64,000 nt of DNA from Streptomyces sp. NBC_00190 (GTDB lineage Bacteria > Actinomycetota > Actinomycetes > Streptomycetales > Streptomycetaceae), in assembly GCF_036203305.1 (NCBI RefSeq), contig NZ_CP108131.1, positions 2,728,001 through 2,792,000 of the forward strand, written 5' to 3'. Positions 18,538 to 63,153 of this stretch are shown here, one piece after another. A program made the position numbers and the translations under genes. The notes below the pieces were generated by a model. That model was not told the origin of the DNA. It was given only the letters and a program-made list of their open reading frames with translations, and did no database searches. Numbering within the stretch: the first letter of the stretch is position 1; each line of letters starts with the position of its first letter.

Positions 18538-18542
18538 CGCGG

Positions 18543-34838: not shown

Positions 34839-34903
34839 GATGCTCCCCAGTCAGTCGGCCCCACGCCGGTCCTCATTCTACGGCTGTCCGCGATCACGCC
34901 GAT

Positions 34904-48508: not shown

Positions 48509-48549
48509 GATTCGAGCGTATGCGCGATCTCGGGCGGCCCGGATTCGCT

Positions 48550-48972: not shown

Positions 48973-49406
48973 GGCGTTCCACCTGTTCGCTGCGTGTCCT
49001 GGTCGACCCATGTCGTGCGGACCACGCTGAGGGTGGCGGTCTCACCTATGTCCAGCACGCGCCAGGTGCGGCCGATCGCTGACGGGTCGGCCGCCTGCAT
49101 GACGCGAACGGTGTCTTCTCTGGAGGCGACAGGCGCATCGAGGGGCGTCAGGAGTCTGTACCGGGAGCGTGTGTCGTCCACGTACGCCTGCCCCGCCAGG
49201 TGAAGAACCACGGAAGGCCCGTCAGCGGGAAAGAGCGCACCAGGCCCTTCGTAGACCACGACCGGAGGCCCTGGTTCGTATTGACCGGTGTCCGGGTTGA
49301 ACACCGGTTCACCCTTGCGCTCGATCCTGACCCTGCTGGTGAGGATCTTCTTCTCGACGATCGCGCTGACGCCCCCCAGAGTCAGCCCCTCAGTGGGAGT
49401 GCTCAT
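48969..49406 (-). CDS. DUF6093-like head-tail protein, copy 1
   Basis: The 145-residue protein (SRVRIERKGEPVFNPDTGQY, VVYEGPGALFPADG, DDTRSRYRLLTPLDAPVASR, GRTWRVLDIGETATLSVVRT) is clearly related to its downstream neighbour, indicating a tandem duplication. It is the first phage structural gene after the 13-kb insertion. The ATG at 49406 is chosen; longer upstream reading enters non-phage sequence. Confidence 0.68.
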   Translation of the reverse strand: MSTPTEGLTLGGVSAIVEKKILTSRVRIERKGEPVFNPDTGQYEPGPPVVVYEGPGALFPADGPSVVLHLAGQAYVDDTRSRYRLLTPLDAPVASREDTVRVMQAADPSAIGRTWRVLDIGETATLSVVRTTWVDQDTQRTGGTP

Positions 49407-49617
49407 GCCCTGAGGGTATGCCGATCCACTGACACAGTCGGCCACGCCCCGTCTGATACACCTCCTGGTCTGGATGAGTCGGGGTAAGGGGTTATGGCGT
49501 GTTCGATGGGTCACCCGTCGCACCGGACAGCCCCCAACCCGGGGGGGGACCAACAGGGTCAAGACGCAGCCGAGCAGCACAGACGTGACTCGCAACCGAT
49601 CCATTCGTTGACCGGGC

Positions 49618-49893
49618 ATGACCATCTTTGGCAAAGCGCATCTTGCGGGGGGTGTGCTCCTCGCGGCCGCACTCGTCGGCGGCATCGCCGCATCTGCTCA
49701 GGCGCAACCCACACCTGGCAACCAGGGCGTCGGCAGCACCCTCGACGGCGGCGACTCCAACCAGGGCTACTCCACCACCTACTTCCCCGGCAGCTTCTAC
49801 CACCCCGGCGGCTACTACGGGGGCCGAAACTACTTCCGCGGCTACTACGACGCCCGCTACTACCACCTCTTCTACGGTGGCGGCCGCCTGTAG
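49618..49893 (+). CDS. secreted Gly/Tyr-rich small protein
   Basis: The 91-residue product has a clear signal peptide (AGGVLLAAALVGGIAASAQA, cleavage after AQA at about residue 29). The mature part has 11 Tyr and 4 Phe in its last 42 residues (HPGGYYGGRNYFRGYYDARY). No cysteines and no known domain. Such composition occurs in adhesive, fibrous or antimicrobial peptides. First gene of the cargo island at its left edge, reading away from the phage operon. Confidence 0.6.
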   Translation: MTIFGKAHLAGGVLLAAALVGGIAASAQAQPTPGNQGVGSTLDGGDSNQGYSTTYFPGSFYHPGGYYGGRNYFRGYYDARYYHLFYGGGRL

Positions 49894-50005
49894 CCCTGCG
49901 GATCTGTTGCTATCCGCTACTGAGCACTGCACGACCAAGGCTCCACCTGGCTTCCGTCCAAGTGGAGCTTCCTGTCGTCTGGCTGCATGACCCACCGGAC
50001 AGTCT

Positions 50006-51115
50006 CTAGGGGGTAACGCGCAGCGTCAGTTCGCGAAGCCGGCGGCCGGTGGTGATGATGTCGTATCGGCGCGCGTTGTTGAGAGCCGCCTTGGTGAGGG
50101 CCTTGCGGTGGTGGTGGTCCCGGCCCATCTCGTCCAGGGCGTCGGCCAGCGAGCGCGGATCGCCGGGGATATAGGGAACGCCGGTGCTGCCGAGGATTTC
50201 CCTCACGCCGGGAAGGTCGGAGTAGGCCACGGGAAGGCCGTGGGCTTGGGCCTCGATCACGACGAGTCCAAAGGCTTCCATGCCTCTGGTCGTGAAGACG
50301 AAGGCATCGAAGTTCGGAAGGCGGCGCCACAGTTCGGCGCGGGGAAGGAACGGGTCGAAATGGACCCGTTCCTGTAGCCCGAGTTCGTTGGCCCGCTGTT
50401 CCAGGTGTTCTCGTCGAATTCCGTGGCCGATGATGGTCAGGTGGTGCGGCTGATGGGTCAGGGCGAGGGCTTCGACGGCGGTGATCGTGGATTTGTTGTC
50501 GTCCAGGCGGCCGGCGTGCACCAGGGAGAGAGGGCCGCTGCCGGTTGGCGGCCGGTCGCGTAACCGGGCGTGCCTCAGATGGATCCCCCACGGGATGACG
50601 GTGAGACGGTCGGTGAATCGCTGTCCGGTGAGACGGTCGATGCGGTCCGCGAAGGCGAAGGTCGGGGCCACGATCGCGGCGCTCGCCGCAGCGACTTCGT
50701 TCAGGCCTTCGCGCTCCCGGGCGCTGTGCTCGGCCGCCATGATGTCGGGGCCGTGGGCGATGGCGATGATCGGGATGTTTCCGGCGGTTCGGGCGAAGGC
50801 CTGGCTGAGAGCGAATCCGAGGTACTGGGCGTGAATGGCGTGCGGCTGGATCGTCTCGATGAGCGCACCGACCTCACGCGTCAGTTCGTCGAGGTAGGGG
50901 TCGAAGCCCGGGCCGTGTGGGCGCTTCGTCGTGGACAGGGTGATCAGCTGACCGAACGCGGTCTGCCAGACCTGATCGACCGGTTCCCTGCCGAGGAAGG
51001 TCGTGTGGGTCTCGGGCATCGCGCCGTAGAGATCATTGACGAGGATCATGCTGCCGGAAGAAGGCGCCGAGGTGCGATTGATGCCAGTCAGGATGTTCAG
51101 GAACTTGGCGGCCAT
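50006..51115 (-). CDS. glycosyltransferase family 4
   Basis: The 369-residue protein has a GT-B fold: N domain with HAQYLGFALSQAFARTAGN and IIAIAHGPDIMAAEH, and C domain with LVHAGRLDDNKSTITAVEAL and the nucleotide-sugar E-x7-E motif in GMEAFGLVVIEAQAHGLPVA. It transfers a sugar from an NDP donor with retention of configuration. Acceptor unknown. It is followed upstream by the 51196 gene and the sugar dehydrogenase in the same direction, so the three are likely one operon. Confidence 0.88.
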   Translation of the reverse strand: MAAKFLNILTGINRTSAPSSGSMILVNDLYGAMPETHTTFLGREPVDQVWQTAFGQLITLSTTKRPHGPGFDPYLDELTREVGALIETIQPHAIHAQYLGFALSQAFARTAGNIPIIAIAHGPDIMAAEHSAREREGLNEVAAASAAIVAPTFAFADRIDRLTGQRFTDRLTVIPWGIHLRHARLRDRPPTGSGPLSLVHAGRLDDNKSTITAVEALALTHQPHHLTIIGHGIRREHLEQRANELGLQERVHFDPFLPRAELWRRLPNFDAFVFTTRGMEAFGLVVIEAQAHGLPVAYSDLPGVREILGSTGVPYIPGDPRSLADALDEMGRDHHHRKALTKAALNNARRYDIITTGRRLRELTLRVTP

Positions 51116-51195
51116 GCGGAACCCCGATCATCGAAAGAACCGGTGGGTTGAAATTGGAGATCGCGCCTCGACGACTCGTGCATCAGGGGTGCGTT

Positions 51196-52491
51196 CTACG
51201 TCTCGCGCCGGCGGGGAGGTGCCCACCACGACGCCAGGTGCGGCGTGACAACGGCCACGACCTCCTCGACCGGATGTAAATAGCCCTTACCGTCCTGTTC
51301 TGCCGCCCACATCCTGACTGACGCTCGGGGATAGACGGGACTTATTCCAATCTCGCCCTTGGGGAGGATTCCGTTGAATGGCGTGGCTATTCCCTCACTG
51401 TTCCAGTAGTCCCACGCCTCAAGAGCCTTGGATTTCTCGAAGCAGTGGTACAACTCCCGATAGCGGCCCATGTACCGGGTCTCGCGGAAGACCATCTGGC
51501 CGAGCAGTCCCGGCGCGGTCTTCTGGATCGTGCTGAGGTCAGCGCCCTGGAAGGTGACCGATGCCGCGTCCTGGGACGGGTGCAGCGCAGTCCGGGCGAG
51601 CAGGTGGGACAGCCGTCGGCGGACGTACTCGGCAACTCCCGGGCCGAGAGCGGGTTCTATGCCCTCGATGAGCTGGACGAGCCGGTGATGGCGCGGCTTG
51701 AAACGGGCCAGGTCGAACAGTTGGTCCATGCCGTCCACGGCTGCGAAGGCGAGCCGTTTGTAGAGCAGGTTGTTCAGCTCGCCCGCCTGAGCGTAGGTCT
51801 TGGTCTCCGGGGTGGTGGAGTGGAGCATCAGGTATTCGGACAGCACCTCGAAGTACAGGTATCCGAGGAACGGCACGGCACGTACGGCGTCGGCCAGCTG
51901 GTTGATGAAGTCGGGTGCCGGCGTGGCGTGGCCGGTGGCGTTGCGCAGGGCGAGGTCGAGGAACACGGCCGCGGCGTGCAGGCCGGCCAGGACGGCGCGG
52001 TCGAGCTGGTCGGTCTCGGCCGGGGTGAGGAAGCTCTGGTAGCGGAGGTAGGTGCGCAGGTGGATGGCGCCGAGATGCAGGTAGTCGACGCCCTTGGGCG
52101 GGATCGGGGCATCCGGGGTGACTTCGAGGATCACGGGCGTGGTGTCGGGTTTCGTCGCCATCAGGTAGGCGCCGAGGTTGTGGGGGCGCAGTCCCTCGCG
52201 TTGGCTGGCGAGGGGCGAGCAGTACAGGGCGCCGACCAGGCATCCGCTGGAGACGTGCACCTGCCCGCTGGTGCGGATGGCGTCGATGCCCCGGGTGGTG
52301 TGCAGCAGGTACATCGGCCTGCCGCTGAGGAGGGCCTCGGTCATGGCGCTGTTCCGGATCAGCCAGCCGTTGGGGGTCGAGTGTTCCAGGTGGTCGCGCC
52401 AGTCGCCCTCGCTGTCGGCCAGCGAGGCAGGGCTGCGACGCTGCGCGGGCACGGTGTAGTCCGTGTGCGCGTGCTCCCATTCGTCGCGCAA
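51196..52491 (-). CDS. unknown protein, possible ADP-ribosyltransferase-like N-terminal fold
   Basis: The 431-residue protein is not recognised with confidence. Near residue 60 it has YLLHTTRGIDAIRTSGQVHV followed by SSGCLVGALYCSP, reminiscent of the H-T ... I-x-x-G start of DarT/RNA phosphotransferase-type ART folds. The rest is helical with RHHRLVQLIEGIEPALGPGV and a late FRETRYMGRYRELYHCFEKS. It sits between a GT4 and a nucleotide-sugar dehydrogenase. Enzyme or toxin function is speculation. Confidence 0.6.
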   Translation of the reverse strand: MRDEWEHAHTDYTVPAQRRSPASLADSEGDWRDHLEHSTPNGWLIRNSAMTEALLSGRPMYLLHTTRGIDAIRTSGQVHVSSGCLVGALYCSPLASQREGLRPHNLGAYLMATKPDTTPVILEVTPDAPIPPKGVDYLHLGAIHLRTYLRYQSFLTPAETDQLDRAVLAGLHAAAVFLDLALRNATGHATPAPDFINQLADAVRAVPFLGYLYFEVLSEYLMLHSTTPETKTYAQAGELNNLLYKRLAFAAVDGMDQLFDLARFKPRHHRLVQLIEGIEPALGPGVAEYVRRRLSHLLARTALHPSQDAASVTFQGADLSTIQKTAPGLLGQMVFRETRYMGRYRELYHCFEKSKALEAWDYWNSEGIATPFNGILPKGEIGISPVYPRASVRMWAAEQDGKGYLHPVEEVVAVVTPHLASWWAPPRRRET

Positions 52492-52536
52492 GAGAACTCC
52501 TGGGGATGGAGGAACAGAGCCGGTCAGGGGCGAGGG

Positions 52537-53793
52537 TTAGAGGACTTCGACGTTCGCTCCGGACATGCGGTTGCGGCAGTCGAGAACCCAGGCCGCGTGC
52601 TGCTGGATCATCGGGAGGTCGAATCGTGCGTGGTCCATGAGGAGCACCACGGCGTCGGCGGCCGCGACCTCCTCCGGCGAAGCGTCCACCCGCCGAACGG
52701 TCACCTCGGCGCTGGCGCCGTCCGGGATGTTGGGTTCGGCGCCGCGGACGTCGGCGCCGAGGCCGGTCAGAAGCTCGGCGACACGTGCCGACGGCGAGTT
52801 GCGCAGGTCGGTGGCGTTGATCTTGTAGGTCAGGCCGAGCAGCAGAATCCGGGCCCTACTGACGGGGATGCCGCGCCTGTCGAGGGCGTCCACGACGCGC
52901 TGGACGACGTAGTCAGGCATGTGCCGGTTCACGTCGTCGGCGAGTTCCACGAACCGGAAGGGTTCGCCGAGCTCCTGCTGGATCTTCCACGCGAGGAACA
53001 GCGGGTCGACGGGCAGGCAGTGCCCGCCGACTCCCGGCCCCGGGGTAAACCGGGTGAAGCCGAAGGGCTTGGTGCCGGCGGCGTCGATCGCCTCCCAGAT
53101 GTTCACGCCGAGACGGTCAGTCAGCGTCGCCAGCTCATTGATCATGGAGATGTTGACGAGCCGGAACGTGTTCTCGATCAGCTTGGCCAGCTCGGCGACT
53201 TTGGGCCCGGACACCGGCACCGTGGTGTGAAAGATGCCGTCGTAGAACTCCTTGATCACTTCGAGTGATGCGGCGTCGATTCCGGACACCAGTTTCGGTG
53301 TCCCCTCGAACGACCACCGCTTGTTGCCCGGCGCGATGCGTTCGGGACTGAATCCGACATGGAAGTCCACCCCGCCCTTGAGACCCGAGGTCTCCTCCAG
53401 GATCGGCAGCAGCACCTCCTCGGTGGTGCCGGGATACGTCGTGGACTCCAGGATCACTGTCGCGCCGGGGCAGAGGTGCGCGCCCAGGGTCCGGCCGCAG
53501 GTCTCGACGTAGGTCAGGTCGGGTACGCCGTCCCGCAGCGGGGTCGGCACCGTGATCACCGCGAGGTCGTAGCCAGCCAGCGCGCCGGAGTCGGCGGTCG
53601 CGGAGTACGCGCCGGTGTCCAGCACCGCGCGGAGCCGCGACGAGGCGACGTCCTCCACGTACGAATCGCCGGCGGCGAGCTGCTGGACGCGGTGCGGATC
53701 CACGTCGTAGCCGACGACACGGTGAGCTACCTCGGCGGCACGTACGGCCAGCGGAAGCCCTACGTAGCCCTGACCAGCGACAACTATCTGCAT
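52537..53793 (-). CDS. nucleotide-sugar dehydrogenase (UDP-glucose/UDP-HexNAc 6-dehydrogenase family)
   Basis: The 418-residue protein has the NAD motif GQGYVGLPLA (7-16), the conserved ESTTYPGTTEE, Lys204-region AELAKLIENTFRLVNISMIN, and catalytic Cys259 in GVGGHCLPVDP. It oxidises the C6 hydroxyl of an NDP-sugar to a uronic acid in two steps. Exact sugar cannot be told. A GAAGGAG site precedes the ATG. It diverges from the GT2 gene with 66 bases between, so the two share a promoter region. Confidence 0.9.
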   Translation of the reverse strand: MQIVVAGQGYVGLPLAVRAAEVAHRVVGYDVDPHRVQQLAAGDSYVEDVASSRLRAVLDTGAYSATADSGALAGYDLAVITVPTPLRDGVPDLTYVETCGRTLGAHLCPGATVILESTTYPGTTEEVLLPILEETSGLKGGVDFHVGFSPERIAPGNKRWSFEGTPKLVSGIDAASLEVIKEFYDGIFHTTVPVSGPKVAELAKLIENTFRLVNISMINELATLTDRLGVNIWEAIDAAGTKPFGFTRFTPGPGVGGHCLPVDPLFLAWKIQQELGEPFRFVELADDVNRHMPDYVVQRVVDALDRRGIPVSRARILLLGLTYKINATDLRNSPSARVAELLTGLGADVRGAEPNIPDGASAEVTVRRVDASPEEVAAADAVVLLMDHARFDLPMIQQHAAWVLDCRNRMSGANVEVL

Positions 53794-53859
53794 GGCAGCT
53801 CCTTCTCGATTGCGGTGCTTGAATGGACCGTCGTTCCTGGTCTGGCAAGGAGAATCGCT

Positions 53860-54633
53860 GTGCCCTTGGTGTCTGTCGTGATGCCCGTGTACAACTCGGC
53901 AGCGACGTTGAGCGCAGCGGTCCGGTCGGTGCTCACGCAGACCCACAGCGACCTGGAGCTGCTGATCACCGACGATCAGTCCTCCGACGGCTCCATGGAC
54001 CTGCTCCGCGAAGTCGCCAAGGAGGACGAGCGCGTCCTGCCGGAATCGGCACCCGAACAGGGCGGCGCGGGCCGAGCCCGCAACCTCGCGATGCAGCGGG
54101 CCCGCGGGGATTACATCGCCTTCCTCGACAGCGACGACATGTGGCTCCCGGAGAAGACCGAAAGGCAGCTCCGCTTCGCCGCGGAGGGCGCAGCGCCTTT
54201 GACCTTCACCTCGTACTTCAAGATGGACGCCGACTACGACGGCGAGAGCACCGACTGGGTCCCGAACGGCCGAGTGGTCCGCGCGCGGAAGCATGTGGAC
54301 TACCGCGCGATGCTGTTCCAGGACCACATCGGTGCCCTCACCGCCATGTACGACCGCAACGTCCTGGGCACGAGGCTGATGCCGGAAATGCGCAAGAGGC
54401 AGGATTACGCCCTCTGGCTGTCGATCATGCGGGACGGCTTCGACGCCCGGGGCCTGGCCGAGCCCCTCGCGGTGTACCGAGCCCACCAGGCGGGATCGCT
54501 GTCCTCCAACAAGCTCTCGCTCGTGCAGTACAACTGGGCCCTCTACCGCCAGCACGAGCATCTGTCCGTCCCGCGGGCGACGCAGGCACTGGTTGGCGCT
54601 GCCTGGCAGTCGATGCGCAACTCGCGTATCTAG
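53860..54633 (+). CDS. glycosyltransferase family 2
   Basis: The 257-residue GT-A protein has VSVVMPVYNSAATLSAAVRS, LELLITDDQSSDGSMDLL and the metal-binding DSDD in YIAFLDSDDMWLPEKTERQL, plus the RRQDYALWL acceptor-side segment (read here as KRQDYALWL). It transfers a sugar with inversion. AAGGAGA precedes the GTG. Together with the dehydrogenase and GT4 it suggests synthesis of a uronic-acid-containing glycan or glycosylated product. Confidence 0.88.
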   Translation: MPLVSVVMPVYNSAATLSAAVRSVLTQTHSDLELLITDDQSSDGSMDLLREVAKEDERVLPESAPEQGGAGRARNLAMQRARGDYIAFLDSDDMWLPEKTERQLRFAAEGAAPLTFTSYFKMDADYDGESTDWVPNGRVVRARKHVDYRAMLFQDHIGALTAMYDRNVLGTRLMPEMRKRQDYALWLSIMRDGFDARGLAEPLAVYRAHQAGSLSSNKLSLVQYNWALYRQHEHLSVPRATQALVGAAWQSMRNSRI

Positions 54634-54760
54634 ATCCGGCGGGAGCCCGGGGAGCCCGGCGCGCGACAATTCCCCGGCCCGTCCCCGCCCCGTGAACCTG
54701 CCGCAGGCTCGACGGCAGGACTCGGGGCGAAGATCGGAAGCTCGCAGTGCCGTCGGCCGA

Positions 54761-55657
54761 TTACGCGGCCGGGCCTGCGACGGCGGGCGCGCGCAGGAAC
54801 AGCTGGAGCAGCAGCCGCCTGTCTGTGGCCCCGATGGTCTCCTGGCCGTCCTGGAGCGCCTCCCGGCCGTGCAGGAAGCGGCGCTGATTCACGATGAGGT
54901 AGTCCCCGGATTCGAGCATGAAGGCGACCTGCCCCCGGACGAGCTCCTCGGCGAGCTGCCTGGCGGCGTCGGCGTGCGCCTGGCCGAGCTGCGACCGCTC
55001 CAGCATCTTGGCGGTGAACCGGACGAATCCGTTGGAGCCGTCCAGGACGGGGAACTGCGCGTACTCCTCGCCGACGCCGTGCAGGTCGAAGAAGGTCCCG
55101 TAGTGGTAGGCCGCCTCGGCCAAGAGCGCGCGGCAGTCCTCCGACAGCCGCGACACGGCCGCGTGGCCGTCGGAGAGGATGCTGGGACCGCCGCCGAGCG
55201 GGTCGCGGCGGACGCACAGGAGCGTGGTGTAGTCAGGGGGCAGGGTCCCGTTCACCAGGTCCATGTGGAACGCGTTGTATCCGATGCCGCTCGACTTCCC
55301 GGGATCCTTGTCGATCTTGACTCCGATGTCCTTCCACAGGGGCCAGCGCGGGAAGGGTGAGAAGGGGACGGCCACCTCGGCTGCTAAGGCCGTCGCCAGC
55401 CGCAGGAACCGCTGGTCGTCAGCCCCACCCAGAGCCTTGGCGAGACTCCCCAGGCGCAGCACGGCGTATCCGCCGCCCTCCCCAGTCAGCGCGCGGCGCA
55501 GCGCCGTGGCGGTCTCCTCGAACCGCGGGACGGCCGTCAGCCCGGCCCGGTACCGCTCCCTGGTGGACTTCGCCAGGAACGGGACGTCCAGCTCCCAGGG
55601 CGGGAGAGGAAGGTTGATCAGGGCGCCTTCGAGCTCGCTTGGGAGGTCGATGATCAC
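54761..55657 (-). CDS. TauD/clavaminate-synthase-like Fe(II)/2-oxoglutarate oxygenase
   Basis: The 298-residue protein has the iron-binding triad: His131 and Asp133 (NAFHMDLVNG) and His263 (VNQRRFLHGREAL), with Arg280 or Arg281 as 2-oxoglutarate ligand. Members hydroxylate or desaturate amino acids, sugars or natural products. I prefer the GTG at 55657 (AGGAAG, 6-base spacing); an ATG at 55822 would add 55 residues of unusual composition. Substrate unknown. Confidence 0.8.
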   Translation of the reverse strand: MIIDLPSELEGALINLPLPPWELDVPFLAKSTRERYRAGLTAVPRFEETATALRRALTGEGGGYAVLRLGSLAKALGGADDQRFLRLATALAAEVAVPFSPFPRWPLWKDIGVKIDKDPGKSSGIGYNAFHMDLVNGTLPPDYTTLLCVRRDPLGGGPSILSDGHAAVSRLSEDCRALLAEAAYHYGTFFDLHGVGEEYAQFPVLDGSNGFVRFTAKMLERSQLGQAHADAARQLAEELVRGQVAFMLESGDYLIVNQRRFLHGREALQDGQETIGATDRRLLLQLFLRAPAVAGPAA

Positions 55658-55846
55658 GGGGAACTTCCTATCTCTTGGGGTCTCGGAGTGTCGTTCGGGT
55701 GCTGCTGCCCGGACGGGCATGTCCTTCCTCACTGGCACGGTGCTGTGCAGGTCAAAGGCCGGTGCCAGGGTCGCCTCAGGCGCGATCCGGTGCCGGGGGC
55801 AGTAAGGGATGAAGGCCGCCATCGGAGTGCAGCGACGAGCTCGGAA

Positions 55847-56323
55847 TCAGCGGGATAGGACTTGCACGGGCTCGCCCTTCTGGGCGCGCAGGGCTGCCTC
55901 CAGCCAGGCGCCACGCTTGGCGTCGAGAAGCGTCATGGCCTCGGCCGCGCGGACCCAGCGGGCTTCGGATAGCTCGCTCTCCTGAAGGCGAACCGAGGTG
56001 TCGGCCGGGACCTGGCCTCCGTCGAAGAGGAACTGCACGACCGCCCGGCCGCCGGTCGACTCTTTCGGGATGTGCCACATCACTGCGAGCAGGCCGGCCG
56101 CCTGGCAGTTCAGGCCTGTCTCTTCTGCGAGCTCGCGCTCGGCACACACCATCGGGTACTCCCCGGGGTCGAGCATGCCTCCGGGGAACTGCCAGGCGCG
56201 GGCACCGTAGTTCGCCTTGACGAGAAGGACCAGGCCGTCCTCATCGGTGACGAGCATCGAGCCGACAGCTACCACCTGGGGCAGGCTGGCCAGCCACTCG
56301 GCCTTCGGAAGCAGGATCGTCAT
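55847..56323 (-). CDS. Nudix hydrolase
   Basis: The 158-residue protein has a complete Nudix box: GGMLDPGE followed by RELAEETGL (G-x5-E-x7-REx2EExG). Family members hydrolyse nucleoside diphosphates linked to other groups, such as NDP-sugars or dNTPs; next to sugar enzymes an NDP-sugar substrate is plausible. The ATG overlaps the LuxR-type stop (ATGA) and follows AAGGAGAAGGA. Confidence 0.88.
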   Translation of the reverse strand: MTILLPKAEWLASLPQVVAVGSMLVTDEDGLVLLVKANYGARAWQFPGGMLDPGEYPMVCAERELAEETGLNCQAAGLLAVMWHIPKESTGGRAVVQFLFDGGQVPADTSVRLQESELSEARWVRAAEAMTLLDAKRGAWLEAALRAQKGEPVQVLSR

Positions 56324-56790
56324 TGGTCCTTCTCCTTCTGCGCGCTGGCGGTCGTGGTCTCGGGTTCTTGCAGGAGTCGCAGCGCCCATGCGCGGCTGAC
56401 CATGTGGGGAAGGTTCCTCGCGCCGAAGCGATCGCGGAGCTTGCGGAGGTCGGCGACCACGTTCTGGCGACTGGTGAGCAGCTCCGTGGCGATCTGCGTA
56501 TTGCTGCGCCCTTGAGCTGCGAGCCTGAGCGCAGCCAGCTCGGCCGGCGAGGTCTTGAAACCCTGCTGTTCCGGCTCAGGGAGGGGCAGGACTCCCTTGC
56601 GGTAGGCGTAGTCCAGTAGGCACGCGATGGTGGGGGCCCCGATCTTGTGCCGGGCTCGCTCCGTGCGAGATCGGATGGTCTCCGCAGATCTGCCCACGGC
56701 CTCCGCGATCTCCGTCGCCGACCTGCCTTCGGCTAGGAGGGCCATAGCCTCGATCTCACGAGGCGTGAAGTCAACGGTCTGCCGCTTCAT
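56320..56790 (-). CDS. double LuxR-type helix-turn-helix regulator
   Basis: The 156-residue protein consists of two LuxR-type DNA-binding domains: TPREIEAMALLAEGRSATEI with AEAVGRSAETIRSRTERAR (about 8-50), and SPAELAALRLAAQGRSNTQI with TSRQNVVADLRKLRDRF (about 82-126). There is no receiver or ligand domain. Two LuxR domains in tandem with nothing else is unusual. It is coupled to the Nudix gene downstream and the GNAT gene upstream by 4-base overlaps. Confidence 0.8.
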   Translation of the reverse strand: MKRQTVDFTPREIEAMALLAEGRSATEIAEAVGRSAETIRSRTERARHKIGAPTIACLLDYAYRKGVLPLPEPEQQGFKTSPAELAALRLAAQGRSNTQIATELLTSRQNVVADLRKLRDRFGARNLPHMVSRAWALRLLQEPETTTASAQKEKDQ

Positions 56791-57365
56791 CCCAAGCCGC
56801 CCTGTTCTGCCGGCGTGGGTGCGATCTGCCCTTCACTGCGAATCAGGGATCCCAGTCCGTCATCGGTCTTGGGGGTCTGCTGGAGCAGGTGCATCGTCCG
56901 CTTCCCCGGCAGCGCCACCTCGCGGACGCTCTGCCACCCGCAGGTGCGCTGGAAGTAGTCCGCCAGGCGCGGTACGCGGACGGTGCATCGGACCCATGCC
57001 GGTGGGTTGGGCTGACGGGCTGCGTAGTCGCGGACCCACGGTGTCAGCAGGCGCCCGACTCTCCTGTGGCTCGGGTGGGCATGGGCGAGTGCAACCAGCA
57101 GGGTCGGCTCCTGGCGCTCCTCGATCGTCCATCCGTCCTCGGGCGCGGCCCACTGAAGTGCGATGGCGCCGATAAGGACCTCGCCGTCCCACAGGCCGAC
57201 GGCCGTCTTGCCGCTGAGGGAGTCCGCGCGCTGGACGAGGTCGACGAGCCTGGCCGCTTCTCCGTCGAACACGTGCTGCCGCTCGATCTGCCGCTCCATG
57301 CGGCTGTCGAGCAGCTCGTCGAGGGCGCTGGAGTGCTTGCTGGTGAGAGGCGTCATCACGTACAT
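56787..57365 (-). CDS. GNAT-family acetyltransferase
   Basis: The 192-residue protein has a GNAT core: VGLWDGEVLIGAIALQW, TLLVALAHAHPSHRRVGRLL (acetyl-CoA loop R-x-x-G-R) and PRLADYFQRTCGWQSVREVA. It transfers an acetyl group to an amine of unknown identity. Operon with the LuxR-type and Nudix genes; it overlaps the 57356 gene by 10 bases. Confidence 0.75.
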   Translation of the reverse strand: MYVMTPLTSKHSSALDELLDSRMERQIERQHVFDGEAARLVDLVQRADSLSGKTAVGLWDGEVLIGAIALQWAAPEDGWTIEERQEPTLLVALAHAHPSHRRVGRLLTPWVRDYAARQPNPPAWVRCTVRVPRLADYFQRTCGWQSVREVALPGKRTMHLLQQTPKTDDGLGSLIRSEGQIAPTPAEQGGLG

Positions 57366-58072
57366 GGGGTGGTTGCCTTCGGGTGAGGTCGGTTCGTGGC
57401 CTGCGTGGTCCAGTCCTCGTCGAGATCGACAACTGTCACGTCCGACAGCTCGACTCGGATCTCGCTCGCAAGGACCCACGGAAGCAAGGGGTCGTGGAAG
57501 TAGGCCGCGTAGTCCCGCTCGACTACGCGGATCTCGTTCGGATTCAAGGGGTTGGGGTTAGGCGCGCAGAGCGTGCCGACGACTCCAGTCGGACGGACCG
57601 CCCTGGCCCGTAGGGCCACGTGACCGGCACGGAGCCGGGGGCACACTTCAACCGCGATCCGGGCGCAGGGAAGACACACCGGCGCCTGGACGAACCCGAT
57701 CTCAAGCGCCTTCTCGTACGCGTCCACCGTGAGAATCCACAAGGTGCCCGCTTCGGTGCAGCCGGCGGGCTCGGCGCAGACCTGGCACAGCAGCAGCCGT
57801 AGTGCTCGGCGCTGCTTGGCGTGGTTGATGTCGGCGAACAGCGGCTTTCCGCGCTGGTCGTCCTGCACCGGCCGGACACCGCGTCGGAGCAGCTCACCGT
57901 GCCTGCCCCGATCGGCGGGAATCTCGTCAACGTACGCGATGCCGTTGGACCGGGCGATGATCTCCCCGGGGATGGCGGGCTCACCCGTCCACACGACGAT
58001 CCAAGGGGCCGCGTCGAGGAGTTTCGTCCGCTGCGCCGTATCGGGTGACTCGGCATCGATTCGTCTGGCCAC
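57356..58072 (-). CDS. unknown protein with two CxxC pairs
   Basis: The 238-residue protein has SNGIAYVDEIPADRGRHGEL, LLLCQVCAEPAG and APVCLPCARIAVEVCP. The two CxxC pairs could bind zinc. It looks like a conserved actinobacterial protein of unknown function. The GTG at 58072 follows AGGAAAGG. First gene of the GNAT-LuxR-Nudix operon. Confidence 0.65.
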   Translation of the reverse strand: MARRIDAESPDTAQRTKLLDAAPWIVVWTGEPAIPGEIIARSNGIAYVDEIPADRGRHGELLRRGVRPVQDDQRGKPLFADINHAKQRRALRLLLCQVCAEPAGCTEAGTLWILTVDAYEKALEIGFVQAPVCLPCARIAVEVCPRLRAGHVALRARAVRPTGVVGTLCAPNPNPLNPNEIRVVERDYAAYFHDPLLPWVLASEIRVELSDVTVVDLDEDWTTQATNRPHPKATTPCT

Positions 58073-58106
58073 TATGCCTTTCCTCAGTCCGAAGTCCGGT
58101 GGATGG

Positions 58107-58138
58107 CCGGCCGCCCCCCGTTCGCTGGGGGCGGCCGG
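58107..58138. terminator. hairpin terminator
   Basis: A perfect 12-bp GC stem (58107-58118 with 58127-58138) and an 8-base loop separate the small membrane genes at 58.3-58.8 kb from the operon downstream. The remaining bases to 58306 hold no clear gene. Confidence 0.72.
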
Positions 58139-58306
58139 GGCGCTCCCGCTCGCCGCTGGGAGGCGGAGCAGCATCAGCGAGGCGCCGCGCCCCGCTCGCT
58201 CAGCTGCCCGGTCATCACGCGGAGGGGTGCGTGGTACGGGGAGCGAGCAGGGCCCGATAGAGCCGCCTCCCCGGAGCGGCAGTACACAGCTCCAGGGAGA
58301 CGGCGG

Positions 58307-58519
58307 TCAGGAGAAGCGCGAGACGTACTGCCAGGTCAGCCAAGCCAGCACCCCAGCGGTGAACATCAGAGGTCCACCGGCCGTCCAGAGCCCGAAGCCG
58401 CTGCGCTCCAGCGCGCCACAGGGGTGCCGTACCGCCCAGCGGAGGCGAGGGAAGTGACGATGACGGTGCGCAGCTATCGGCCGTACCGGGAGCCGACGGT
58501 GACCAGCACCCCCATGCAT
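58307..58519 (-). CDS. possible small membrane protein
   Basis: The C-terminal part (FGLWTAGGPLMFTAGVLAWL) is a clear membrane span. The N-terminal part is Arg/His-rich and may not be coding; the true start is uncertain and could be as late as the ATG of MFTAG. Member of a chain of tiny genes downstream of the ATPase. Confidence 0.35.
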   Translation of the reverse strand: MHGGAGHRRLPVRPIAAHRHRHFPRLRWAVRHPCGALERSGFGLWTAGGPLMFTAGVLAWLTWQYVSRFS

Positions 58520-58548
58520 GCGATCAGCACCCAGCCGAGCCACGTCAC
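58474..58548 (-). CDS. 24-residue single-span membrane peptide
   Basis: GTG ACG TGG starts MTWLGWVLIACMGVLVTVGS RYGR. It overlaps the stop of the 58545 gene (GTGA), so it would be translated by coupling. Hydrophobic over its whole length. Confidence 0.4.
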   Translation of the reverse strand: MTWLGWVLIACMGVLVTVGSRYGR

Positions 58549-58778
58549 ACGCCCTCGTCGGAGCGGGCCGCCCCGCGGCCGCGCCGACGCAGGCCGGACA
58601 GCCTCGTGACCTTCTGGACCCGGTCGGGGCTCACGTACTCCAGGTCTCGCGGCAGCGCCTTGGGCATGGGCAGGTCCGCTTCGGCCTGCTGCCAGGCGGA
58701 GCCCGGCTCACGAGGCGGGAGCGGGCTGGGCTCGGACTGAACGAGTTCCGGTAAGCCGGATCGGCTGACCTCGTACAC
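58545..58778 (-). CDS. small polar protein of unknown function
   Basis: The 77-residue protein (YEVSRSGLPELVQSEPSPLP ... LPRDLEYVSPDRVQKVTRLS) starts at a GTG with a GGAGG site 5 bases upstream. It lies 59 bases after the RsbW-like ATPase. Small unrelated proteins in this position are common next to ATPase/XRE pairs in Streptomyces. No function assigned. Confidence 0.5.
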   Translation of the reverse strand: MYEVSRSGLPELVQSEPSPLPPREPGSAWQQAEADLPMPKALPRDLEYVSPDRVQKVTRLSGLRRRGRGAARSDEGV

Positions 58779-58837
58779 GAATTCCTCCAGGAACCTGATG
58801 GTTTGGGATGTGTGCCGACGCGCAGCGCCGGCCGGGC

Positions 58838-59341
58838 CTACCGCGCTACCGAGGCAACCGGGATCACGCAGTAGACGGTCCTGCTGTCTGAGGCGACGCC
58901 CCATCGCCCGCCCATCTCGGCGGTGATCTCTTCCACCATTGCGAGCCCTCTGCCGGACTCCGCATCCGCGCCGGCGTCGCACACCTTGGGCTGTCCGCCG
59001 CCCGCGTCCTGCACGAGGATGTGCAGCTGTCCCCTCGCGTAGAGCTGCGTCACGGTCACTGAAGCGCCCTCCCCGCTGCCGCGGGCGGAGTGCCGGATGG
59101 CGTTCGACACGAACTCGCTGACAATCGTCAACGCCGAGTCCCGCAGGCTCGACAGCCCGAGGTAGCGGAGCCTGGCAGCCACGATGCGGCGGATGTGACC
59201 GACCCGCCTGGCGTCAGTGGCGGACACGACGCCGACCTCCTGGCCCTCGATAGCGAAGGATGTCGCCATGAGGTCCACGGCCGGTCGGCTCATAGCCGTG
59301 TTCTCCGCCACCGGACACGGCCGGGCAATCGTCTGCGTCAT
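58838..59341 (-). CDS. RsbW-like serine kinase/anti-sigma-type ATPase
   Basis: The 167-residue protein has a single HATPase_c domain with N-box EFVSNAIRHS, G1 VQDAGGGQPKV and G2 GRGLAMVEEI. This is the Streptomyces RsbW/SpoIIAB-like type, often paired with an XRE regulator as in whiJ/abaA-type loci. It diverges from the XRE-TPR gene 225 bases away. Confidence 0.85.
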   Translation of the reverse strand: MTQTIARPCPVAENTAMSRPAVDLMATSFAIEGQEVGVVSATDARRVGHIRRIVAARLRYLGLSSLRDSALTIVSEFVSNAIRHSARGSGEGASVTVTQLYARGQLHILVQDAGGGQPKVCDAGADAESGRGLAMVEEITAEMGGRWGVASDSRTVYCVIPVASVAR

Positions 59342-59565
59342 GACCTGACACCTGTCCGATCGGTAGAGAACGTGTGTGAGGAAGGAGAACGCGGTGCTCG
59401 GCAACCACTTCCTTCGACGTGCACGGGCTGGCCGAGCCACACGAAGAGGAAACGCCCAACCGGCGTGCAGGGACAGGCAATTTGCGTCGCTCTCGGCTTG
59501 CGCAGAACCGGTAATTTTTACCTTGCGACCGTCACGCAACGATGTGACGCCGTTACGGTGGGCCC

Positions 59566-60867
59566 ATGACGGAGAACGTGCTCCTCGCGTCGCACATGGA
59601 AGCCGCAGGGCTCAAACAGGCTGAGCTGGCACAGCGGTTGAACAAGCACATCGAACGCCTCACCGGCAGGCCCGGAACGCTGCAAGACCGGCACATCCGG
59701 AACTGGCTGACCGGAAAAACTTCATGGCCTCAGACGCGACAGCGACTGGCCTTAGAAGCAGAATTCGATGTTCCTGCCGAGGCGCTCGGCTTCCGGCGTC
59801 CTATGAGGCACGGCAGCAGCGAGCACCCGGCTTCATCACACGCACCATCGGAGGATCCAGTGAAGCGACGTCGCTTCACCTCGGCGGCTGTCGGCTTCGC
59901 AGCCTCCGCGCTGCTGCCGGTACCCGCGGCAGCATCACGACGCCGCATCGGCATGGGAGACCTCGACGAGCTGGAGACAGCATTCGATCAGCTCGTCGCA
60001 TCGGACAACCTGGCCGGCGGCACGGTCAAGCTGGAAACGCGTGCCCTGGCGTTCGCCCACCACGCCCAGGAACGGCTGGCCGTCGGAACCATGAGCGAGC
60101 GGGTGAAGGACCGGCTCTACCTCCTGGCGGCAGCGTTCACCGGGACGGCCTTGTGGGCAGCGGTGGACGATCACGCGCCCGACCGCGCACGAGGCCACCT
60201 CGAGCGAGCCCTGCACATGGCGCGATTGTCCAAGAACCCGGAGATCGAGCTTCGACTATGGGGGCACGCCGCTCTGCTGGCGGCTCAGCGCCCGGGCGGT
60301 CTCCGAGAAGCGTTGGACGCTGCCCAGATCGCTCGCCGTTCCGCAGCCTGTCGCCGCGACCCTCTCTTCGGCTCGTTCGCGTCGGCTCGTCTCGCTGGAG
60401 TGCAGGCCCAAGCTGGTGATCACAACGGCTCCCTTCGCTCAATAGAAATCGCTCGCAGGGCTTTCCAGAAGGCCGACCCTGGAGCGCAGCGGCCGGCCTG
60501 GATCGGGTTCTACGACGCTGCGGAACTGGACGGGCTCTCCGCTGTGGTCATGTCGCGCATTGGACGCCACGCCGAGGCTGAGGCACACCTGCACCGCACC
60601 CTCGGTGGACTGCGCCCCGGGTACGTACGCAACCGCAGGTACTACACGGCCAGTCTCGCGCTGGCCCAGCTGCACCAAGGAGAGCCCGAGCAAGCATGCG
60701 CGACGGCTCTCAGTGCTCTCCCTGACCAGGCCAGTGATTCACTGACCGGACGCACGGGCCTACTGCTGAACCGGTTCGACAAGGGCCTCACCAGCATGGC
60801 CCCAGGCGCCCAATGCACATCCGAATGGACAGCTCGATACGTGACGAACAAGGGACAGCAGTCGTGA
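59566..60867 (+). CDS. XRE-type regulator with C-terminal TPR-like helical repeats
   Basis: The 433-residue protein has an N-terminal helix-turn-helix (LKQAELAQRLNKHIERLTGR ... NWLTGKTSWPQTRQRLALEA), a short Ala-rich segment (TSAAVGFAASALLPVPAAAS) that could be a membrane or linker helix, and a helical-repeat C-terminus (EARGHLERALHMARLSKNPE-like, LRSIEIARRAFQKA, EAEAHLHRTLGGL). This plan is typical of Streptomyces regulators that bind peptides or partner ATPases. It overlaps the GNAT gene by 4 bases (GTGA). Confidence 0.78.
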   Translation: MTENVLLASHMEAAGLKQAELAQRLNKHIERLTGRPGTLQDRHIRNWLTGKTSWPQTRQRLALEAEFDVPAEALGFRRPMRHGSSEHPASSHAPSEDPVKRRRFTSAAVGFAASALLPVPAAASRRRIGMGDLDELETAFDQLVASDNLAGGTVKLETRALAFAHHAQERLAVGTMSERVKDRLYLLAAAFTGTALWAAVDDHAPDRARGHLERALHMARLSKNPEIELRLWGHAALLAAQRPGGLREALDAAQIARRSAACRRDPLFGSFASARLAGVQAQAGDHNGSLRSIEIARRAFQKADPGAQRPAWIGFYDAAELDGLSAVVMSRIGRHAEAEAHLHRTLGGLRPGYVRNRRYYTASLALAQLHQGEPEQACATALSALPDQASDSLTGRTGLLLNRFDKGLTSMAPGAQCTSEWTARYVTNKGQQS

Positions 60868-61418
60868 CCGTCGTGTTCAGCCAGGCCACCGCCGAGCAAC
60901 TGCCCGCCATCCGCGAAGAGATCCTTCGCATCCACCAGGAAGTACGACACCGCGACTTCCAGATCCTGACCGAGTTCCAGTCAGTGGAAAGGTTCGACGA
61001 GCGCCTCGCCAACTACGCGTCCCGCCCTGGCTGGACCGCCGTGATCGGTCACGAGGACGGTGAAGCTGTCGGCTTCGCCTTCGGCGTTCCCCTCGGTCCC
61101 GATACGCAGTGGTGGTCCACGATGACGGAACCCCTTCCGGCCGAGTTCATAAAGGAGGACGGCAAACGAACCGTCGCGCTCAACGAGATCGTTGTCCGCC
61201 GACCGTGGCGCGGAAGCGGCGTTGCCTGGCAACTTCATGAGACCTGGCTCGCTCCCCGAACCGAAGAGCGCGTGACGCTGCTGGTCAACCCGGCCAACGG
61301 CAACGGCGCAGTTCAGGCCGTGTACGAGGCGTGGGGCTACCGTGTCGTCGGTCATCAGCAGCCGTTCCCCGATTCCCCGAAGTACGCCGCCATGGTCAGG
61401 CCCGTCGCCCGCCCTTAG
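60864..61418 (+). CDS. GNAT-family acetyltransferase
   Basis: The 184-residue protein has VIGHEDGEAVGFAFGVPLG, IVVRRPWRGSGVAWQLHETW (acetyl-CoA loop RGSG) and LLVNPANGNGAVQAVYEAWG, a full GNAT pattern. The GTG overlaps the XRE stop (GTGA) behind AAGGGAC, so it is translated with the regulator. Substrate unknown; a role in self-protection or product tailoring is possible. Confidence 0.8.
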   Translation: MTVVFSQATAEQLPAIREEILRIHQEVRHRDFQILTEFQSVERFDERLANYASRPGWTAVIGHEDGEAVGFAFGVPLGPDTQWWSTMTEPLPAEFIKEDGKRTVALNEIVVRRPWRGSGVAWQLHETWLAPRTEERVTLLVNPANGNGAVQAVYEAWGYRVVGHQQPFPDSPKYAAMVRPVARP

Positions 61419-61619
61419 CCAAGCCGCGCGTCCCGACGCCGGGTTACGCCAACGGCCCATAGACGTCACGGAGCTGCACAGCCGCCATCCCCCGCGATAC
61501 CGGCGTCGCCGAGCTGGTTGCTGCCACGAGCCTGATGTAGGGGGCGCAAACCGATGCCACTCTTCGAGTCCCGCGAAACCACTCTCACATCACGGCTATA
61601 GGTGGTTGAATCCGTCCCC

Positions 61620-62267
61620 ATGGAGATCGCCGCGGGGGAATGGTGGGAGTCTGGCTCTTGGTGGCAGCTCGCCGTCACGATCACGGCCAGCCTCGCGGTC
61701 GGCGCGCTGGCCGCTTGGGCCACGATTCGGGCGAACAACCCGAAACGTGAAGTCAACTGGTGGGTACAGTCCAACACACCATTGATGGGAGAGCAGTTCG
61801 CTGGCGGGAACCTCTCCGTCCACTTCGTCGGGGTCCCGGTGGCCAATCCGCGCATCGTGGAGCTTGTCATTCAGAATGGTGGTCGCCGCGACATCACGGC
61901 AGGGATGTTCCACAACGGCGAAGCGATTCAGTTCGACTTCGAAGCTGACGTGTGCACGGTCCTTGATCTCACTACCTCCCCGACCGGAAGCGTGCCGCCA
62001 CGCACCAATACGGCCGGATGGACGGTCACGGCGAACGAGACGTCGGGTGAGAGTTGGCTCGAAATCAAACCGTGCTTGCTGCGTCGAGGGCAGCTGGTCA
62101 CCGTGACCCTGCTGATCGACGGCGACGAGAAGCCTGTACGGTGCACGCGATTTCCGCTCGTTGACGTGGAGGAGGCTTCCGTACCGCCCGGCTTGCGCTC
62201 ACGGGCGCTGACAGACGCATTCGCGAACACTGTCCTCCAGATAGGCCCCTTCAGCATCGGACGCTAG
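61620..62267 (+). CDS. single-span membrane protein of unknown function
   Basis: The 215-residue protein has an N-terminal span (WWQLAVTITASLAVGALAAW) and a beta-rich exterior or cytosolic domain (IVELVIQNGGRRDITAGMFH ... PCLLRRGQLVTVTLLIDGDE) with DIEAD- and NETSGESW-like loops. No family recognised. A GTG at 61602 is an alternative start. It is the last cargo gene, ending 41 bases from the convergent minor capsid stop. Confidence 0.55.
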   Translation: MEIAAGEWWESGSWWQLAVTITASLAVGALAAWATIRANNPKREVNWWVQSNTPLMGEQFAGGNLSVHFVGVPVANPRIVELVIQNGGRRDITAGMFHNGEAIQFDFEADVCTVLDLTTSPTGSVPPRTNTAGWTVTANETSGESWLEIKPCLLRRGQLVTVTLLIDGDEKPVRCTRFPLVDVEEASVPPGLRSRALTDAFANTVLQIGPFSIGR

Positions 62268-62308
62268 TCCACCTGCACATATCCGCACGCAGGGACCCCA
62301 TCTAGGAC

Positions 62309-63148
62309 CTACAAAGGGTCAGCCATCTCCGCGTTCCTACCGGCCACGTCAGGGCGAGCGCCGAAGGACCGTCGGCAGCGCGGATGGGAGATAGGGAACT
62401 CGGCTGCGTCCTCAACACTGCGGATGCTGCGGGCGGCCTTGTCGGGGTCCTGGTGGCTGACCCAGCCGCAGTCCATGCCGTCGAAGACCTCCACGTATCT
62501 GACGCCGGCCTCACGGGTGCGGTTGAGGGTGCCCGCGTTGTAAGCCACCGCGCTCTTCGCCAGTGTTGCCGCCTCCGCCCACGCTCGGACCGGAACGCGG
62601 GCTCCATTGCGGTAGACGACGTGAGCCAGCTGGTGATCGTCGCGGAGTCGGGCAGCCAGGTTCGCGGCCGCTTGCTTCGCGGTGACGTTTCCTGCGGTCA
62701 GGAGCGGGACTTCGCGGCGTGCGGCTGCCCGGGCGGCGCGGTAGAACGCTGCGGCCATCCGCTCGGCCTCTTCGGACCGGCGGAGGAAGTCTGCGTAAGA
62801 GTCGCTGGCCAGGCTTAGCAGCGCGTCTCGGTGGATCATCGTCCATGTGAACCGCGCGCCGAGCCGTGCGGCGGCCTGCTCGGCGCCTTGTTGGTAGAGG
62901 TGTGGGAGCTGTCGGCGGACGAAGGCGACGGCCTCCGTGTCGGCCTCGCGACGGAACGCTTGGACGGCGCGCTTGAACTCCTCCAGTGTGAGCAGCACGA
63001 GGCGGCCGCGGGGCTGTTGCTCGAAGGTCTTGAGCACGCGTTCCTGCTGCGCGGCGAGTCGGTGCCAGGCTTCGTCGAGTACGGCCGCGACACGCTGAGC
63101 GACTTCGTCCGGGTCGCCGGGCACCAGCGGCGGCCAGTCGTACGCCAT
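62309..63148 (-). CDS. phage minor capsid protein (MuF/Phage_min_cap2-like)
   Basis: The 279-residue protein is helical (AAVLDEAWHRLAAQQERVLK ... LYQQGAEQAAARLGARFTWT) with the MuF-type C-terminal signature VRYVEVFDGMDCGWVSHQDP and FPISHPRCRRSFGARPDV (Cys and His positions). MuF-type proteins sit at the portal inside the head. It is the last head gene before the cargo island; next in order should be the head-tail genes now found at 49.4 kb. Confidence 0.78.
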   Translation of the reverse strand: MAYDWPPLVPGDPDEVAQRVAAVLDEAWHRLAAQQERVLKTFEQQPRGRLVLLTLEEFKRAVQAFRREADTEAVAFVRRQLPHLYQQGAEQAAARLGARFTWTMIHRDALLSLASDSYADFLRRSEEAERMAAAFYRAARAAARREVPLLTAGNVTAKQAAANLAARLRDDHQLAHVVYRNGARVPVRAWAEAATLAKSAVAYNAGTLNRTREAGVRYVEVFDGMDCGWVSHQDPDKAARSIRSVEDAAEFPISHPRCRRSFGARPDVAGRNAEMADPL

Positions 63149-63153
63149 GGCGG

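Follow-up and report, generated by a model that had tools for sequence, protein, structure and literature searches.

The Streptomyces phage ZL12/pZL12 and the 85-94 kb phage-plasmids of Streptomyces share a late region in which terminase, portal, major head, minor head, connector, and tail genes follow one another in this order. The same order is found in a 70.4-kb prophage of Streptomyces sp. NBC_00190, which was studied starting from a stretch of 64,000 nucleotides (contig NZ_CP108131.1, positions 2,728,001 to 2,792,000; hereafter the window) and whose proteins are approximately 30-57% identical to those of ZL12 (tblastn against NC_013420). ZL12 (NC_013420, 90.4 kb) is the closest deposited phage, and there the minor head gene (gp060) is followed by two small genes and then by the DUF6093 gene (gp057), whereas in the NBC_00190 prophage a 12.9-kb block of non-structural genes on both strands (49407-62308) separates the minor head gene from DUF6093. 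We propose that, quite probably, the late region of a temperate, ZL12-related Streptomyces phage lineage has a permanent cargo slot, which would serve lysogenic conversion, and that this block is what currently fills it.

Morons, known from lambdoid phages, are cargo genes that have been inserted among the structural genes of a phage. The block resembles morons in consisting of non-structural genes that lie between genes neighbouring in relatives and are thought to serve the lysogen. It differs from them in scale and organization: the 16 blocks compared in this work measure 10-58 kb and contain 11-50 called genes (15 genes here), with their own regulators and biosynthetic clusters instead of one or a few genes, and the putative restart element described below serves the downstream phage genes. 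Class I lanthipeptide clusters have already been reported in Streptomyces prophages (putative clusters in 13/2112; PMC10023795), like the lanthipeptide genes in five of the 16 blocks here; the section of that paper devoted to them describes no common site, phage lineage, or cargo exchange, and the block of the window has no lanthipeptide genes. The WhiJ/AbaA/BldB regulatory clusters of Streptomyces combine, in the parts of the reports that describe them, an XRE-type regulator with an adjacent HATPase_c protein (PMC10294661, PMC4255298); the same pairing is present here, where it belongs to exchangeable prophage cargo and the XRE protein is of the NsdA family. In the open-access literature, surveyed mostly by titles and the openings of abstracts, we found no account of a common site, of cargo exchange, or of a seam promoter.

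Occupancy of the minor head/DUF6093 junction

The slot is bounded upstream by the minor head gene (62309..63148, minus strand; phrog_37388, E 2.2e-103, and phrog_4611) and downstream by the first of two DUF6093 genes, namely copy A, encoding a connector-type protein (48969..49406, minus strand; PF19586, phrog_13779), which is followed by the DUF6093-like copy B (48550..49011, minus strand; phrog_13779). The initial annotation had correctly placed the block between the end of the minor head gene at 62309 and the first DUF6093 start at 49406. The junction was compared in genomes of the same genus and family, the gap being measured between minor head and DUF6093 wherever one contig has both (G and L numbers denote compared genomes and loci, G000 being the genome of the NBC_00190 prophage; the named relatives belong to Streptomyces and allied genera). 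All 16 related prophages, this one included, carry a block at this seam, with gaps of 10.2, 12.7, 12.9, 13.3, 13.4, 13.9, 14.4, 15.2, and 15.5 kb in the shorter nine and 21.6, 21.6, 27.9, 31.6, 32.7, 33.8, and 57.9 kb in the longer seven; their minor head proteins are 51-92% identical in the pairs printed. The longest gap (G343) was retained, although further DUF6093 matches there are partly broken and a second insertion is possible; without it, the range is 10.2-33.8 kb. No gap was obtained from G023, G041, G054, and G075, which have a minor head match without a DUF6093 match, G218 was dropped because its fragments are spread over several contigs, and 9 of the 26 portal-bearing genomes are without a minor head match.

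Block-free relatives, to which the initial annotation had looked for comparison, do exist as ZL12-type elements; within the block lineage itself they were not encountered. All seven ZL12-type elements of the same genome set have a gap of 0.43-2.2 kb, and five IMG/VR loci of this type have gaps of 0.66-0.98 kb. Eight of the 39 plasmid records with a minor head match were fetched, and seven of the eight have a labelled DUF6093 gene 0.38-1.6 kb further on; in ZL12 and these seven plasmids, 1-3 small genes lie between the two. The ZL12 type thus differs from the block type in its 0.4-2.2 kb gap, in a single labelled DUF6093 copy (in the records fetched), and in having no seam motif. It also consists mostly of plasmids, whereas 8 of the 16 block-type prophages are integrated at tRNA-Met and span 64-108 kb, a range that does not follow the 85-94 kb of the plasmid-prophages.

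An alignment search with the minor head protein collected named genome loci that partly overlap the 16 prophages (L053 is G011 and L060 is G303 by sequence). Near-full minor head matches were present in 23 of them, 19 with enough DNA; 18 of these 19 have no DUF6093 gene within 10 kb, and in L074 (S. beijiangensis) it follows after 8.6 kb. Outside this count stand L075 and L077-L082, with a partial minor head match, and L056, L062, L063, and L071, where the DNA ends too soon. Four IMG/VR loci (L105, L106, L115, and L119) are identical, over the stretch covered, to host contigs that continue, yet stop 0.9-6.5 kb past the minor head gene; for L105 and L106 (G011 and G303), the DUF6093 genes lie further along the host contig, beyond the end of the provirus record. 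At least four database proviruses therefore end inside the block, and this truncation may have contributed to the slot being overlooked. An assembly error, another possibility raised by the initial annotation, is unlikely, since the window is part of an 8.63-Mb contig (genome of 8.9 Mb in two contigs) and other assemblies also have a block at this seam.

The content of the block varies independently of the minor head gene. When the 338 called genes of the 16 blocks were clustered (homologues defined by 50% identity over 60% of the length), the number of shared block genes showed no correlation with minor head identity (rho 0.08, p 0.41, 120 pairs). The nearest relative, G536, has a 90% identical minor head protein, yet none of the 14 called genes of the NBC_00190 block; G026, with a 74% identical minor head protein, has the TauD, dehydrogenase, 431-aa, and GT4 genes in common with it (mean 83%) and also the GT2 gene (tblastn, 85%). 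In total, 227 of the 338 genes have no homologue in any other block, and no gene cluster is common to all 16. Synonymous divergence (dS) on the head side and on the DUF6093 side is 0.58-1.03 and 0.20-0.28, respectively, between G026 and G011, 0.27-0.47 and 0.52-1.36 between G290 and G393, and roughly equal between G011 and G485. For the few genes compared, it looks as if recombination at or near the slot gave its two sides different histories.

Parts of the same cassette recur elsewhere. Within the DNA reached, the slot of L059 (S. canus V4I20) and that of L064 (Streptomyces sp. D2-8) both contain TauD, and L059 also contains the dehydrogenase. Two plasmids (NZ_CP108865 and NZ_CP071045) carry the TauD, GT2, dehydrogenase, and 431-aa genes with order and orientation preserved: on a 357-kb linear plasmid of S. 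virginiae the cassette is followed by GT4, with Nudix, HTH, and DUF397 genes adjacent, and on a 467-kb plasmid it is followed by two short glycosyltransferase genes, with an HTH regulator and an ATP-binding protein adjacent. The regulators next to the plasmid copies resemble those of the block in type, and the 17-21 kb plasmid stretches around the cassette contain no genes labelled as phage. Homologues of the 431-aa protein were found in 12 of 101 genus genomes (the G000 and G026 copies sit in the slot) and in 6 of 72,556 plasmid records, and in none of 50,697 phage records.

The block might instead be a region required by the phage itself, for example for late regulators, which drifts fast and is not host cargo. 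An AbaA-like ATPase cluster in 11 of the 16 blocks, at least one antisense gene in every block, and the failure to find a block-free member of the lineage agree with such a region. We consider it improbable, given that no cluster is common to all blocks, that ZL12-type relatives have at most 2.2 kb at this place, and that the cassette is carried by plasmids with no phage genes labelled in the stretches shown.

Integrity and size of the prophage

The prophage runs beyond the end of the window, where its portal, terminase, and integrase genes were found (positions are numbered on from the window). The element is 70,398 bp long between attL (18542..18587, plus strand), a 46-bp exact copy of the 3' part of tRNA-Met, and its exact 46-bp partner attR (88940-88985, outside the window), which is the 3' part of the tRNA-Met gene at 88940-89014; a tyrosine integrase gene (86843-88783) adjoins this tRNA gene. 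On the upstream side of the block lie the large terminase (73192-74730), portal (69299-71146), head-decoration, and major head (63831-64886) genes, and on its downstream side the two DUF6093 genes are accompanied by neck, major tail, tape measure, Dit, tail tip, and endolysin genes; recombination-type genes were also detected. The element looks like an ordinary integrated temperate phage with the block well inside. A serine-recombinase-like gene (L003:5458-6429) and a ParB gene (L003:2360-3496) lie near the tyrosine integrase, and genes for N6- and C5-DNA methylases (20078-21148 and 24971-26458) lie towards the attL end.

The ratio of nonsynonymous to synonymous divergence (dN/dS) against G536 was 0.018-0.283 in 17 gene pairs on both sides of the block (pairs of at least 45% identity with a called gene of at least 60 aa), including 0.025 for the major head gene, 0.113 and 0.087 for the DUF6093 copies, and 0.056 for the neck gene. 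G536 retains head and connector genes, a block, and the seam motif, and is an incomplete or strongly mosaic prophage; for this reason, three other prophage pairs were also compared, which gave 0.022-0.222 in 14 comparisons. The NBC_00190 prophage shows no sign of being a fossil. The initial annotation had offered two explanations, a fossil prophage carrying a chromosomal island and a lysogenic-conversion cassette. The first, according to which the island was acquired by chance and the phage is dead, could draw on the antisense host-like genes within a late operon, on the 431-aa homologues of the genus, two of which sit in the slot, and on the incomplete state of the nearest relative; it is given very little probability in view of the exact att repeats, the low dN/dS on both sides in all four pairs, and the occupied seam of all 16 prophages. 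The second fits the position of the block inside an att-bounded element and at the same seam in all relatives.

Eight of the 16 prophages are flanked by the tRNA-Met repeat, either exact or with 1-3 changes, at a distance of 64.1-108.5 kb (several genomes have extra copies nearby, and the nearest on each side were taken as the pair), and no linked tRNA-Met repeat pair was found for the other eight. In G291 (C1:6734573-6896268), seven tRNA-Met att cores with one mismatch each are spread over 160 kb, an arrangement suggestive of several elements lined up in one site. Larger blocks go with larger elements (rho 0.90, n=8), with no sign of compensation. Among the 39 plasmid records with a related minor head, 32 measure 84.8-94.1 kb and one 152 kb, while the other six (594-869 kb) have a 51-residue match only. 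The concern that 13 kb of extra DNA would exceed the capacity of the head does not hold for this prophage, which at 70.4 kb is below the main plasmid range; some relatives, of 103-108 kb, are above it.

Sequence elements at the seam and along the late region

Called genes antisense to the late operon are present in each of the 16 blocks (1-15 per block), which makes a single late transcript unlikely. Directly upstream of the DUF6093 start in the NBC_00190 prophage lies the sequence TGTC-N12-TACCCTC (49412..49434, minus strand), a putative leaderless promoter. In an alignment of the DUF6093 starts, conservation begins approximately 30 bases upstream and takes the form TGTCnG-N10-TAcGCTCg, the ATG following 12-13 bases after the first T of TAcGCTCg; the TAnnCT part is present in 15 of 16 sequences. 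The pattern TG[TC]C-N12-TAn[GC]CT[CG] occurs 18 times in 400 kb on both strands, 14 times at the seam (14 of 16 prophages) and four times just after the second DUF6093 gene; it occurs once in the whole 70.4-kb prophage and is absent from ZL12 and 13 other ZL12-type stretches (14 in all). Among four occurrences in 559 kb of named loci, one is at the sole seam reached (L074) and three are elsewhere; since the pattern was shaped on the 16 sequences, L074 is its only independent confirmation. If TAcGCT is a -10 element, the A of the ATG would be close to the transcription start, i.e. the mRNA would be leaderless. The seam motif is thus perhaps a leaderless promoter at which late transcription restarts downstream of the cargo, and such a restart would let operons on either strand ride along without the connector and tail genes being silenced.

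A wider pattern with sigma-70-like spacing gave no match at the seam, and no conserved sequence was seen by eye at the left seam, after the minor head stop. The sequence TACGCTCG (48506..48520, minus strand), without the TGTC part, lies shortly before the ATG of the ZL12 gp058 homologue; this gene (48101-48508) follows the DUF6093 pair here and precedes DUF6093 in ZL12. The DUF6093 gene is doubled in the block lineage and single in ZL12.

A second element, TAnnnTGA-N2-12-GGCGyGGGG, was found four times in the 70.4-kb prophage versus none in 30 simulated sequences: at 78581, before a 222-aa gene adjoining a ParB-like gene; at 71141, at the portal start; at 66150, before a 225-aa gene (by position alone, the scaffold) that precedes the decoration and major head genes; and at 34852..34880 (minus strand), before a 106-aa gene beside the endolysin gene. 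Its core, GGCGcGGGGGCGC, is also present at 75291, before the gene that immediately precedes the large terminase gene and matches PHROG 645 (labelled RNase E). Of 21 named loci with the 225-aa gene, 20 have the element before it (16 the full pattern and four the core), L056 having neither; the ZL12 portal is likewise preceded by the element. The idea that each slot has its own restart element was only partly borne out, as the block-free plasmid stretch L146 has the element at the same position before the 225-aa gene. The element is possibly the late promoter or a leader element of this phage family.

The head operon of the NBC_00190 prophage is interrupted at two further places, 66122-69298 and 71147-73191, largely by opposite-strand genes. 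The gap between the portal and the 225-aa gene is filled with extra, mostly opposite-strand and largely unscanned genes in all five block-type prophages checked, and the gap between terminase and portal in all four where the terminase was seen. Together with the element sites, these interruptions suggest that the late region is divided into segments, each with its own start, some of which have cargo between them.

Several observations weigh against a permanent, functioning cargo slot. No empty site was found inside the block lineage, and the nearly cargo-free state is known from ZL12-type relatives alone, with 34-50% identity (ZL12) in the minor head, major head, and portal proteins. The 80-kb stretch of G536 (C1:635001-715000) has nothing that matches the large terminase, Dit, tail tip, or endolysin, and its tape measure match extends over 129 residues only. 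As element size grows with the block, the largest elements, of up to 108 kb versus 94 kb for ZL12-type plasmids, may not be packageable. The seam pattern was built from the same 16 sequences on which it was scored, the seams of G485 and G539 do not fit it (G485 retains TACGCTCG), and it occurs away from the seam once more in the 80 kb of G536 (683122) and once in a host flank. A consensus scan of 48400-63200 for sigma-70-type promoters gave no sites versus 0.9 expected, and the seven terminator-like sites in the same interval versus 4.9 expected are near chance.

Some of these observations, namely the truncated gene set of G536 (no terminase and most tail genes missing in the stretch seen) and the elements of more than 100 kb, as well as the further interruptions of the head region, would also be expected of phage-derived elements that no longer form phages, such as a domesticated particle or gene transfer agent. 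The NBC_00190 genome has an integrase, att repeats, large terminase, portal, major head, tail, endolysin, and recombination-type genes, and an origin of this kind is very improbable. A cargo slot in a temperate phage lineage remains the reading that we prefer.

Gene content of the blocks and its predicted role

In the NBC_00190 block, 15 genes on both strands were counted (14 called genes and the GT2 gene, added from a plus-strand open reading frame), rather than the approximately 17 of the initial annotation. The part next to the minor head gene encodes a 215-aa protein (61620..62267, plus) with a hydrophobic N-terminal stretch by eye and no Pfam match, a GNAT acetyltransferase (60813..61418, plus; PF00583) whose cluster, F11, is present in 4 of 16 blocks, and an NsdA-family XRE-TPR regulator (59566..60867, plus; NF053720, 252 bits versus a cut-off of 75; phrog_10886). 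The regulator gene is divergent from that of an AbaA/RsbW-like ATPase (58838..59293, minus; HATPase_c_2, profile on a longer frame), whose cluster, F3, is present in 11 of 16 blocks. They are followed on the minus strand by genes for a 77-aa protein (58545..58778; gene call alone), a 272-aa protein (57356..58174; no Pfam match), a 192-aa protein (56787..57365), a protein with two LuxR-type HTH stretches (56320..56790; PF00196), and a Nudix hydrolase (55847..56323; PF00293, longer frame). The 192-aa protein had been proposed as a second GNAT and has no Pfam (longer frame) or NCBIfam match; the other family assignments of the initial annotation (one GNAT, GT4, NDP-sugar dehydrogenase, GT2, 2-oxoglutarate oxygenase, Nudix, double LuxR, RsbW-like ATPase, and XRE-TPR) agree with the profiles, as does its description of the 431-aa protein as lacking a family.

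The cassette proper comprises a TauD-type 2-oxoglutarate oxygenase (54761..55822, minus; PF02668), weakly similar to asparagine oxygenase (2og5, E 0.0051), a GT2 glycosyltransferase (53860..54633, plus; PF00535; a 257-aa frame of equal length and orientation on the two plasmids), a nucleotide-sugar dehydrogenase (52537..53793, minus; TIGR03026, 379 bits versus a cut-off of 189.8; best solved match 4r16), the 431-aa protein (51196..52491, minus), and a GT4 glycosyltransferase (50006..51115, minus; PF00534/PF13692). A 91-aa Tyr/Gly-rich protein with a signal-like N-terminus by eye (49618..49893, plus) is encoded next to the DUF6093 seam. No Pfam, PHROG, or NCBIfam profile matches the 431-aa protein, its own profile gave no solved relative (best E 0.67), and its structure prediction is poor (mean pLDDT 49). 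One homologue of it (P0045, 704 aa) also has a GT4-type Pfam domain, which suggests that the 431-aa protein and GT4 act together. Among NCBIfam models, the general NDP-sugar dehydrogenase model alone passes, and no model for UDP-glucose or another specific substrate reaches its cut-off. The uronic-acid glycan of the initial annotation is possible, given the dehydrogenase and two glycosyltransferases, but was not confirmed, and a tailored small molecule agrees with the cassette as well.

In the lysogen, the NsdA/AbaA-type regulators of the cargo itself would govern its expression, and the cargo would confer a conversion trait on the host. The regulators of the block are similar to ones that act in Streptomyces development and antibiotic control, namely the WhiJ/AbaA neighbours and the NsdA family; NsdA represses antibiotic production. 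For the window, the TauD, GT2, dehydrogenase, 431-aa, and GT4 proteins could together make a glycosylated or uronic-acid-bearing metabolite or a surface glycan, an assignment that is possible but that we place somewhat below an even chance.

Other blocks carry different cargo. Class I lanthipeptide clusters are present in five of the 16 (G011, G024, G303, G291, and G485), each with LanB, LanC, a methyltransferase family, and a 55-68 aa precursor-like peptide (profiles on G303, the rest by clustering). In the G303 block, LanB, LanC, and a precursor were all found (PF04738, E 1.8e-186; PF14028; PF05147), and the methyltransferase-family protein carries a lantibiotic-dehydratase-like domain. The precursor-like peptide of 62 aa has no Pfam match, a Ser/Thr/Cys-rich end, and the sequence FDLDV, which we take to be the leader motif of class I lanthipeptide precursors. 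LanB-like genes lie downstream of the minor head gene in 7 of 30 named genome loci (two of the seven being G303 and G024 again, and two with a partial minor head match only) and in 3 of 23 IMG/VR loci; no match to Lant_dehydr or LANC was found among the proteins scanned from the block of the window. G385 and G393 have a common operon (L090:7622-15914 in G385) of QueC, radical-SAM, reverse-transcriptase-like, FGE-sulfatase, GT2, GT4, phosphoribosyltransferase, and 5'-3' exonuclease families (profiles on G385). An amino-acid permease and a glutamine-synthetase-type gene are common to four blocks (profiles on G024), and the G539 block has phosphoglycerate-kinase and semialdehyde-dehydrogenase families.

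Alternatively, the slot might be mainly a defence island whose products shield the lysogen from other phages, in some cases through small molecules such as intracellular lanthipeptides. The five lanthipeptide blocks, the lack of an exporter family match among 13 of the 15 called genes scanned in the G303 block, and the match of a 652-aa ATPase of G311 to mad3 (PADLOC, E 6e-30) point in this direction, and intracellular anti-phage lanthipeptides of Streptomyces are described in a review (PMC12360287). By analogy, anti-phage action of the lanthipeptide blocks is plausible. As a description of the slot as a whole, defence is rather unlikely: PADLOC gave no match for the three of 15 proteins tested from the block of the window, seven proteins from other blocks gave three blanks and three weak matches, and the permease, glutamine-synthetase, phosphoglycerate-kinase, and semialdehyde-dehydrogenase cargo looks metabolic.

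According to the part of PMC10023795 that touches on them, phages seldom carry large biosynthetic clusters. Here, a single phage-operon junction holds, in each of the 16 members measured, 10-58 kb of exchangeable and repeatedly biosynthetic cargo. We tentatively suggest that the late-operon junction could be a promoter-insulated cargo bay, through which biosynthetic clusters for lanthipeptides, deazapurine-like compounds, and glycosylated metabolites would be traded among phages, plasmids, and chromosomes and would give the lysogen chemical immunity or competitiveness. With this slot, the way in which phages carry and insulate conversion genes can be tested simply, and natural products borne by phages may be sought there.

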